Shown here: one piece after another, positions 20,568 to 25,860 of the stretch
Layout of the letters: the number at the start of each line of letters is the position of its first letter
Numbering within the stretch: the first letter of the stretch is position 1
Assembly: GCA_020444265.1 (NCBI GenBank)
Contig: JAHLLH010000006.1
Location: 124,001-188,000 of the forward strand
Direction: 5' to 3'
DNA from: a bacterium
GTDB taxonomy: Bacteria; Electryoneota; Electryoneia; Electryoneales; Electryoneaceae
Length of the DNA: 64,000 nucleotides
Notes under the pieces: generated by a model
The model's input: only the letters and a program-made list of their open reading frames with translations
What the model was told of the DNA's origin: nothing
Database searches by the model: none
Position numbers and translations under genes: made by a program

Positions 20568-22004
20568 ATGAAGCTGAGTCGCGAAAAGATGCTGGCACGT
20601 GCCCTCGCACGGGATGCCCGGTATGATGGGGCCTTCATTACAGGTGTCCTTTCCACCGGAATCTACTGTCTCCCTTCCTGCCCCGCACGCAATCCAAAGG
20701 CGCAAAACATCCGCTTTTTCGAGGGTGAGGCCGAGGCACGCGAGGCGGGCTTGCGTCCCTGCAAACGTTGCCGTCCAGATCTCTTCTACCGCAGGATCAA
20801 CCCGGATGAGACCCTGGCCCAGGACCTCGCTGAGCTGGTCCGTCGTGATCCAGCGGCCTTCACCGACACCCGCGCCCTCGCGAAAACCTCCGGGGTGGGG
20901 AACACCAAGCTCAACGAGCTTTTCCGTACGCACTACCACACGACCCCGTCGGCCTATCTGCAACGATCCCGTGCTTTCCTCGCCCTCCGCTTCCTGTTAG
21001 AGGGGGAGACGGTCACCGAGGCAGCGTTTCGTGCCGGGCATGGCAGCTTGTCCACCTTCCATGCTAACCTGCGTAAGTGGACCGCGTTGAATGCGAAAGA
21101 AGCGAAACGGCTGCGTGAGGGGAAACCCTTCGAGTTGAGCTACCCACCCGGTTTCCGTGTCGACCTGCTGTTGCGTCAACACTCCTGGGATGGTATCGGT
21201 CCAGATCAGAAACGTGATGGCAACCAGATCATCCGTGCACTGAATTTTCCCGATGGCCCGGTCACGCTGCGCTTCTCCATTGAGGAGAAAGGGGTGACCG
21301 TGCTGGTGGAAAGCGACAAGCGATTGACAATCACCCAATGTCTCGGGATCCATAAAGCGCTGATCTCGCTGCTGGGCCTGCGTGGCGATCCACACAGCTT
21401 CGAGAGACGAATGGCTGAAGAGAGTGATCACCAACGGCTGATAGGTAGCAGGACCGGATTGCGCATTAGCGGCACAGCTTCCTTCTTCGAAGGAATTGTC
21501 TGGGTGATCGTCGGGCAGGCGGTGACCCTGGCCGTTGCCCACACCATGCGCAGCCGTCTCATCGAAAAAACAGCCATCCCAGCACCAGGCGGCCTGCAGG
21601 CGCACCCCCTGCCAGAGGATGTCATCAAGCTGGATGAATCGGAACTGACCGGAATGGGATTATCGCGTGCCAAGGCACAAACCCTGTTGCGGATCGCGGG
21701 CATGATGGATCGAGGTGAACTCGATCCAGACCAGCTTGCCCATGATCCCGCCGGGAAACTGGAACGTACCCTGACCAACATCCCCGGCCTTGGTCCCTGG
21801 TCGGTGAACTACCTGATGATGCGCTGGTTTGGCCTCGCTGATTGTGTACCTGTTGGAGACTCGGGTCTGGCTGCTGCCTTGCAGAACTATTACCATCTCG
21901 AGAAACGTCCGACGAAGAAGCAGACATTGGAGCTGATGGAAGCTTTTTCCCCCTACCGCAGCTTGGCGACCTTTCACCTTTGGATGACCCTTGGAGATGG
22001 ATAA
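20568..22004 (+). CDS. alkA: Ada-AlkA fusion: methyl-sensing regulator and 3-methyladenine DNA glycosylase
   Basis: 478 residues in three parts. Residues 1-75 are the Ada zinc/methyl-acceptor domain with C34, C38, C65 and C68 (YCLPSCPAR, RPCKRCRP), matching the four ligands of E. coli Ada. Residues ~80-185 are an AraC-type HTH (two helix pairs, LQRSRAFLALRFLL). Residues ~195-478 are AlkA: an N-terminal beta domain, then the HhH-GPD glycosylase with IPGLGPWSVNYLMMRW and the catalytic-aspartate segment VPVGDSGL. It should excise alkylated bases and sense methyl phosphotriesters to induce its own operon. Its stop overlaps the ogt start by one base. Confidence 0.92.
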   Translation: MKLSREKMLARALARDARYDGAFITGVLSTGIYCLPSCPARNPKAQNIRFFEGEAEAREAGLRPCKRCRPDLFYRRINPDETLAQDLAELVRRDPAAFTDTRALAKTSGVGNTKLNELFRTHYHTTPSAYLQRSRAFLALRFLLEGETVTEAAFRAGHGSLSTFHANLRKWTALNAKEAKRLREGKPFELSYPPGFRVDLLLRQHSWDGIGPDQKRDGNQIIRALNFPDGPVTLRFSIEEKGVTVLVESDKRLTITQCLGIHKALISLLGLRGDPHSFERRMAEESDHQRLIGSRTGLRISGTASFFEGIVWVIVGQAVTLAVAHTMRSRLIEKTAIPAPGGLQAHPLPEDVIKLDESELTGMGLSRAKAQTLLRIAGMMDRGELDPDQLAHDPAGKLERTLTNIPGLGPWSVNYLMMRWFGLADCVPVGDSGLAAALQNYYHLEKRPTKKQTLELMEAFSPYRSLATFHLWMTLGDG

Positions 22005-22549
22005 TGAATTCCGAATCCTGTGTGATAAACAGTAAAATCGGCCCACTGCGGGTGGTCGTTGAGTGGCCCGGGGTCCTGAAGCGGATTGATTTCCTGCCAG
22101 AGGAGACGGATGAGCCCTTCGCCGAAGGAGATGGTATTCCGGAGCTTTGTCGTCCAACGGTCGCCCAACTCAACGACTACTTCGAGGGGAAACGAACCAG
22201 CTTTGACCTCGAACTTGACCCGGAGGGGACTGAGTTTCAACGGACTGTCTGGGCCGAACTGGAACGCATTCCACATGGCGAGGTGATCAGCTATGGAGAG
22301 CAGGCGAAACGGATGAAACGTGCCGCTTCCTCCAGCCGTGCGGTGGGGCATGCGAACGGTTCCAACCCTATTCCGATTGTCATTCCCTGCCATCGCGTGG
22401 TCGCAGCGGACGGCAAGCTGACCGGTTTTGCTGGGGGCCTGTGGCGCAAGGTGATCCTGCTCGAGCACGAGGGGCATGAAGTGGTCAAGGAAAGGCTCGT
22501 GCGACCCACCTGGGAGACCCAGGGAGCTCTATCCCTTGGGGAAGAGTAG
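22004..22549 (+). CDS. ogt: Methylated-DNA-protein cysteine methyltransferase
   Basis: Start at ATG 22004, overlapping the alkA stop (taATG), giving 181 residues. The active-site motif IPCHRV places the methyl-accepting C129, with the preceding R-A-V-G-x-A-N-G-x-N-P DNA-binding helix-turn-helix and the closing GFAGGLWRK. It transfers the methyl group from O6-methylguanine to itself in a suicide reaction. Coupling with the Ada-AlkA gene makes a compact adaptive-response operon in which the Ogt domain of Ada is supplied as a separate protein. Confidence 0.93.
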   Translation: MNSESCVINSKIGPLRVVVEWPGVLKRIDFLPEETDEPFAEGDGIPELCRPTVAQLNDYFEGKRTSFDLELDPEGTEFQRTVWAELERIPHGEVISYGEQAKRMKRAASSSRAVGHANGSNPIPIVIPCHRVVAADGKLTGFAGGLWRKVILLEHEGHEVVKERLVRPTWETQGALSLGEE

Positions 22550-25034: not shown

Positions 25035-25067
25035 AAAAGGGGAGGAGCCACAAGCTCCTCCCCTTTT
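25035..25067 (+). terminator. Strong terminator before the peroxiredoxin gene
   Basis: A 14-bp perfect stem: AAAAGGGGAGGAGC (25035-25048), CACAA loop, GCTCCTCCCCTTTT (25054-25067), followed by GTTTG. Confidence 0.9.
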
Positions 25068-25146
25068 GTTTGTGTAATCTGTGAGTCTGCCGTATCTTTT
25101 TAGACCCCCCAGCTGTGCATTTTCCCATCCAATAGGAGGTCTTGCA

Positions 25147-25860
25147 ATGTCGCAGGACAAAGAAGGTTGCGTCTCCTCCGCTGGCGGCCCGCTGGTCGAC
25201 CAGCCGACGGAAGACCAGCCGATTGCAGCCTCGCCAACGAAAAAGGAGCCTGCTATGACCGCACGTGTAGGGCATCCCGCTCCAGATTTTGAAGCGACGG
25301 CGCTTCACAATGGAGCATTCAAAAACATCCGGTTGAGCGAGTATCTCGGTCAGTGGGTCGTACTCTGCTTCTATCCGGGCGATTTCACCTTCGTTTGACC
25401 GACTGAATTGACAGCGGTCGCTGTCAAATACGACGAAATCAAAGCCCTCGGTTGCGAAGTCCTCTCCGTAAGCACCGACAGTCGTTTCACCCACAAAATC
25501 TGGCAGAATGAAGAGCTCGGCAAGATGGTTGAGGGTGGTGTTCCCTACCCGATGCTATCCGATGCCGGCGGCGCCATCGGCTCCATTTACGGGGTCTATG
25601 AACCCGCTGCAGGTGTGAATATCCGTGGTAGGTTCCTCATCGACCCAGAGGGTGTCATCCGTGCGATGGAAGTAATGACACCTGAAGTAGGGCGAAATGT
25701 TGCTGAGCTGATCCGCCAGGTGCAGGCGTTCCAGCATGTGGAAAAAACCGGCGAGGTTACACCGGCAGGTTGGACACCCGGCAAGAAAACCCTCACGCCG
25801 GGATTCGATCTAGCGGGCGAAGTGTGGAAGGTCTGGAAACCGGAAGAGGCATTTAAATAG
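25147..25860 (+). CDS. Selenocysteine-containing peroxiredoxin (AhpC/TSA family)
   Basis: One 237-residue protein read through an in-frame TGA (25396-25398) as selenocysteine. AGGAGGT at 25134-25140 positions ATG 25147; an in-frame ATG at 25255 with its own AAGGAG is an alternative that would drop a 36-residue N-terminal extension. The active-site loop is [16 protein letters not shown]: the P-x3-T-x2-C motif is complete except that the peroxidatic Cys (residue 84) is TGA. The frame continues for 153 family-typical residues ([35 protein letters not shown]). The usual resolving-Cys segment V-C-P-A is V-T-P-A here, so it would act as a 1-Sec enzyme or resolve with another thiol. It should reduce peroxides, cytoplasmic. 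Terminators on both sides make it a single-gene unit. Confidence 0.9.
25396..25427 (+). promoter_or_regulatory. Bacterial SECIS element downstream of the UGA
   Basis: After TGA (25396-25398) a perfect 8-bp stem TTGACAGC (25408-25415) / GCTGTCAA (25420-25427) closes a 4-base loop GGTC (25416-25419). The loop begins with G and lies 17 bases after the UGA, matching the known bacterial SECIS rules (small loop with a G among its first two bases, at a distance of about 16-37 bases), and the loop resembles the GGUC core of E. coli fdhF. It would bind SelB to recode the UGA. Confidence 0.85.

Follow-up and report, generated by a model that had tools for sequence, protein, structure and literature searches.

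A PrxU-family selenocysteine peroxiredoxin gene with a cysteine-bearing N-terminal arm and a probable second start site

In the window (the whole stretch of 64,000 nucleotides that was analysed), a peroxiredoxin gene carries TGA where the codon for the peroxidatic cysteine is expected. The locus raises the question of whether this codon is read as selenocysteine (Sec) and, if so, how such an enzyme would be resolved when the usual resolving cysteine is also missing. Between the ATG at 25147 and the TAA ending at 25860, the triplet at 25396-25398 is the sole in-frame TGA. The 237-residue read-through product, here called PrxU, gave 131 bits with Pfam AhpC-TSA and 41.8 bits with 1-cysPrx_C. It scored 368.7 bits over residues 5-233 with the NCBIfam PrxU model (NF040737; curated cut-off 270), a model that extends over the N-terminal arm region too. 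The TGA aligns with the peroxidatic cysteine of human Prx2 in TFVCPTE, which places Sec at codon 84 in the TFVU position characteristic of PrxU. An AlphaFold model of the product (mean pLDDT 89.9) resembled solved structures of Prx2, Prx3 and AhpC, with a TM-score (target) of 0.92 to human Prx2 (7kj1) and 47% identity over the aligned part. Translation, Pfam, the PrxU score and the Prx2 alignment thus bear out the preliminary description: in a complete peroxiredoxin of the AhpC/Prx1 type, TGA has taken the place of the codon for the peroxidatic cysteine. The same description was right that threonine replaces the usual resolving cysteine: Thr205, in VTPAGW, occupies the C-terminal position, and the V-C-P-A-x-W motif of typical 2-Cys enzymes is absent. 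It expected gene callers to report a truncated frame of 84 codons; from ATG 25147, 83 sense codons precede the TGA. The product contains Cys8, Cys74 and Cys103, of which Cys8 and Cys74 are conserved.

Table 1. Features of the prxU locus, in window coordinates.
Feature	Position	Strand	Remarks
Intrinsic terminator of the upstream gene	25035..25067	+	14-pair stem, 5-nt loop, T-rich tail
Outer Shine-Dalgarno AGGAGGT for the long isoform	25134..25140	+	7 nt between GGAGG and ATG
prxU, long isoform	25147..25857	+	237 aa from ATG 25147, TGA read as Sec84; stop TAA 25858-25860
Codon for Cys8 of the N-terminal arm, a candidate resolver	25168..25170	+	Common to ~70 armed relatives
Internal Shine-Dalgarno AAGGAG	25243..25248	+	6 nt to ATG 25255; conserved in the family
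prxU, predicted short isoform	25255..25857	+	201 aa from the internal ATG, without Cys8
Codon for Cys74 (U-10), adjoining the active-site strand	25366..25368	+	Cys in 93/110 Sec forms vs 2/16 Cys forms
UGA codon for Sec84, peroxidatic position	25396..25398	+	TGA in 110/126 distinct relatives, TGC/TGT in 16
SECIS hairpin, 8-bp stem, loop GGUC	25408..25427	+	Compensatory pair changes; loop conservation

The source assembly (4.33 Mb, 94% complete, a draft of 19 contigs) was searched for the selenocysteine machinery, the complete absence of which had been named as evidence against the proposal. We found selA (541.7 bits), selB (331.5 bits), selD (362.4 bits; C4:217902-221831) and a tRNA-Sec (anticodon UCA), which scored 59.3 bits with Rfam and was called tRNA-SeC by ARAGORN. 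Since all four parts are present in the genome, selenocysteine is strongly supported. Of the other genomes with the TGA version, 24 were checked and all gave a selA match, 22 above the cut-off and two as fragments. The selD gene of the source genome (L016) itself has an in-frame TGA, between TRCAG and ASK, which we take to be the usual Sec site of SelD; this SelD is probably a selenoprotein as well.

Relatives were drawn from a scan of genome contigs, from the class and phylum of the source and from regions extracted for reading. The phyla to which two MAGs belong supplied further relatives: that of a Desulfuromonadaceae MAG (131 of 395 genomes) and that of a Halanaerobiales MAG (41 of 299). 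The catalytic codon was TGA in 110 of 126 distinct genes and TGC or TGT in the other 16. The TGA is conserved over several phyla, with named carriers labelled Chloroflexota, Thermodesulfobacteriota, Myxococcota, Planctomycetota and Bacillota. One TGC version (L119, genome G336) retains both the arm cysteine described below and the cysteine at U-10, and a TGA copy occurs in the same genome; it is an apparent Sec-to-Cys conversion within the arm clade. At another locus (L060), prxU is adjoined by a PrxQ-like frame with a lipoprotein-like start and a TGA between AFYPKDDTKL and IRQFVEF, probably a second Sec peroxiredoxin.

The hairpin that follows the UGA was then compared with its counterparts in the relatives. 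It starts 9 nt downstream of the UGA and consists of eight pairs (25408-25415 with 25420-25427) closed by GGTC at 25416-25419, with a UGA-to-loop distance of 17 nt. The perfect 8-bp SECIS-like stem and its GGTC loop at 17 bases are therefore as first described, and the stem covaries in relatives. With a position just after the UGA and a G within the first two loop bases, the GGUC hairpin has the features of a bacterial SECIS element. Folded alone as RNA it reached -11.4 kcal/mol (z = -5.1). For a longer stretch of 45 nt a competing fold was predicted as the minimum, so it is conservation, rather than the folding of this one sequence by itself, that carries the SECIS assignment. Synonymous recoding of the source gene alone reached eight pairs in 1% of trials. 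Of the 110 Sec genes, 91 had at least seven of the eight stem pairs, where synonymous re-dealing of codons would give 12.5; none of the 16 Cys genes had as many. Among the Sec relatives, stem pair 3 was seen as GC, TA, CG or AT, and stem pair 6 as GC, AT, CG or TA. In the loop, 76 of the 110 Sec genes have AGTT and 25 have GGTC; this AGUU/GGUC loop is retained far more than the protein sequence demands. Neither the covariation nor the loop conservation was found in the Cys relatives. A relocated SECIS was seen in L125, L143, L152, L153 and L155-L158, in which the hairpin is shifted about 5 nt downstream (an ATAGC...GCTAT stem) while the UGA has not moved. From the genes compared, UGA 25396 is almost certainly decoded as Sec by SelB and tRNA-Sec under the direction of the SECIS hairpin. 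We put the probability that the product is a Sec-containing PrxU at about 0.92.

A candidate second start codon, preceded by its own Shine-Dalgarno sequence, lies between the N-terminal arm and the peroxiredoxin domain. A Met codon occupies this place in all arm genes except L111, with GTG in L040 and L103, and the position is where short relatives begin. Pairing of the inner site with the 16S tail averaged -11.8 kcal/mol, compared with -6.1 ± 0.4 for synonymous recodings. GGAG was present at the inner site in 66 of 68 relatives (15.4 expected from synonymous recoding) and, when one gene was kept per 75%-identity group, in nine of nine (1.2 expected). As a control, in-frame ATGs elsewhere in these genes (327 in all) gave no such signal (-4.4 vs -4.5 recoded). 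The outer start is preceded by GGAG, AGGA or GAGG in 67 of 70 armed relatives, and GGAGG along the genes concentrates mainly at two sites, ahead of the outer and ahead of the inner start. The inner site of the source gene is weaker than most (duplex -7.9) and alone is not significant (recoding p 0.10), so for this gene the two-start claim leans on the family, in which the second Shine-Dalgarno sequence and its start codon are under selection. It is likely that one mRNA carries two in-frame ribosome-binding sites with both starts in use, which would yield a 237-residue isoform containing Cys8 and Sec84 and a 201-residue isoform.

The arm spans about 36 residues ahead of the domain; the 70 genes that share it come from the U-P-T-E as well as the U-A-T-E clade. 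Its cysteine lies 7-9 residues from the start, in most cases within GC[AV][RK]P... The set was picked by a cysteine 70-80 codons ahead of the UGA, so that its presence in 70 of 70 genes is partly by construction; L113, L124 and L133 were dropped for a chance cysteine in an open upstream frame, and L083 and L111 were added by eye. Codons of the arm vary at the third position yet preserve C, P and G, so the arm is translated. In the AlphaFold model it has low confidence, with a pLDDT of about 50-70. A lipoprotein reading of the arm, suggested by a cysteine near the N-terminus, was rejected because no hydrophobic signal segment precedes Cys8.

The distribution of cysteines bears on the function of the arm. 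The ~70 armed relatives lack the C-terminal resolving cysteine, and 50 members of the U-A-T-E clade carry the arm cysteine without the C-terminal one. L140 and L141, which by the tree are nested inside the U-A-T-E clade, have lost the arm, start at the domain and have ACPAGW with a C-terminal cysteine. L020, near the base of the same clade, has both cysteines. Such an exchange of arm and C-terminal cysteine, seen in a single nested event, would be expected of an arm cysteine that acts as the resolver. Both the arm and the C-terminal cysteine are missing from about 14 short relatives, most of which came from the search of the Halanaerobiales-related phylum; a resolving cysteine is therefore not essential for the family. 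The preliminary description classed the enzyme as a 1-Sec type; its basis, the change of the C-terminal cysteine to threonine, stands, but the conserved arm Cys8 and Cys74 at U-10 had been overlooked, as had the internal start. In a subclade with tyrosine at U-10 (L120-L122, L124, L129, L130, L133 and L137), cysteines at U+111 and about U+143 replace the usual thiols.

Upstream of prxU is a PQQ-like propeller gene that ends in a 14-pair terminator, and prxU is probably a separate transcription unit. Downstream are a short frame without assignment and then an M20 peptidase gene on the opposite strand. A comparison of eight relatives revealed no conserved prxU neighbour that could hint at the reductant, bar desulfoferrodoxin-like genes, assigned by eye, beside two short relatives. 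In these two (L050 and L056) the desulfoferrodoxin-like gene is upstream of a short prxU of the C-terminal-Cys type. At 20568-22549 of the window, an Ada/HhH-GPD gene overlaps one for an O6-methylguanine methyltransferase, and the two form an alkylation-repair pair.

Other readings of the gene were weighed against a functional UGA and a functional second start. The TGA could be a sequencing error, or a nonsense mutation that has left an ordinary Cys peroxiredoxin as a pseudogene or split gene, and the draft state of the assembly leaves room for an error. The same codon is, however, TGA in 110 distinct genes from several phyla, the downstream frame remains open and, like the SECIS, conserved, and the Sec machinery is complete. 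We consider an error or pseudogene extremely improbable and reject it on the conserved TGA, SECIS and downstream frame. The internal Shine-Dalgarno sequence could likewise be a relic of an ancestral start, or a ribosome-pausing site, in a gene that makes the long protein only. Short relatives start exactly there with the same kind of Shine-Dalgarno sequence, as the ancestor probably did, and the site in the source gene is below average in strength, which both agree with a relic. Yet the signal survives thinning below 75% identity, the start codon stays ATG or GTG and the spacing is mostly in the usable range. Synonymous drift should have wiped out a relic signal, which makes this explanation the less likely one, and we regard it as unlikely overall.

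For the resolution of Sec84, we give about an even chance to Cys8, which would be linked to Sec84 by an Se-S bond, either inside one subunit or between neighbouring ones, and thioredoxin would reduce this bond. A credible if less than probable alternative is a 1-Sec peroxiredoxin in which thioredoxin or small thiols reduce the Sec directly and the arm cysteine serves as a structural element, a regulatory element or a docking tag. A second thiol at the arm or at the C-terminal position need not be present for the chemistry to work, since ~14 short relatives have none there, several of them having only the U-10 cysteine. Against this reading, every complete armed U-A-T-E gene among the relatives keeps the arm cysteine, none having an arm without it, and the arm cysteine was swapped for a C-terminal one in one nested lineage. 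A more doubtful candidate is Cys74, which might form the Se-S bond beneath the active site: cysteine at U-10 is found in 93 of 110 Sec forms, gives way to other residues such as Phe, Met or Val in 14 of the 16 Cys relatives, and is the sole cysteine of several short relatives. The predicted secondary structure places Cys74 in the strand ahead of the active-site loop, where it is probably buried, and U-10 cysteine is absent from the Tyr-10 subclade and others; we hold a resolving role for it to be improbable.

Returning to resolution by Cys8, the following sequence of events can be proposed. SelB and tRNA-Sec would insert Sec at UGA 25396 under SECIS direction, and the two in-frame ribosome-binding sites of one mRNA would give an armed long isoform carrying Cys8 and an armless short isoform. 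A peroxidatic Sec reduces a hydroperoxide and is itself converted to a selenenic acid, and Sec84 would do likewise. In the long isoform, Cys8 on its flexible arm would take the place of the lost C-terminal resolving cysteine and form the Cys8-Sec84 Se-S bond within its own or a neighbouring subunit, a bond that thioredoxin would then reduce. The short isoform would work as a 1-Sec enzyme, with external thiols as its direct reductants. We infer Sec insertion in vivo, the peroxidase chemistry, the two isoforms, the resolution of Sec84 by Cys8 and thioredoxin as the reductant from the sequences compared. Extended to PrxU of several phyla, the proposal is tentative, with odds somewhat short of even: a long isoform with a movable Cys arm in place of the C-terminal resolver and a short 1-Sec isoform may assemble into mixed oligomers. 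If true, such oligomers would tune the resolution of the selenoenzyme, its protection from over-oxidation and its reduction.

As a selenoprotein, prxU is an ordinary member of the already named PrxU family; Sec peroxiredoxins have been known since 2001, and the gene only adds one more little-studied bacterial group to the family. What merits specialist attention is the arm together with the conserved second start. Much of the PrxU family seems to encode two isoforms differing by one Cys-bearing arm; if this is true, annotation of PrxU genes changes in the start site as well as in the stop codon. The gene also offers a direct test of how a selenenic acid is resolved in bacteria without the usual cysteine.

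The Sec peroxiredoxin of Eubacterium acidaminophilum was described by Sohling et al. (2001), as cited in PMC13188914, PMC9312934 and PMC8533274. Reviews that cite this enzyme list Sec peroxiredoxins with the TxxU motif. Such proteins have been counted in the Sargasso Sea (PMC1088965) and in many anaerobes (PMC1794560). The prxU product shares with the E. acidaminophilum enzyme and NF040737 the Sec at the peroxidatic TFVU position and the AhpC/Prx1-type fold. No description of an internal start in PrxU, or of the arm cysteine as a substitute resolver, was found in the literature searched, which covered few subscription journals, and the conserved internal Shine-Dalgarno sequence and start in PrxU genes are apparently unreported. 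Typical 2-Cys peroxiredoxins (Prx1/AhpC, human Prx2 7kj1) have the same fold, active-site motif and C-terminal 1-cysPrx_C segment, whereas prxU has Sec for the peroxidatic cysteine, Thr205 for the C-terminal resolver and the Cys8 arm. A parallel for the second start is clpB of M. tuberculosis, from which two ClpB isoforms are made by one gene (PMC6168691). Both genes would give a long and a short isoform through an internal start, those of prxU being predicted from sequence alone. Unlike those of clpB, the prxU isoforms would differ by a single Cys-bearing arm on a selenoenzyme, and both would be translated through the same UGA.
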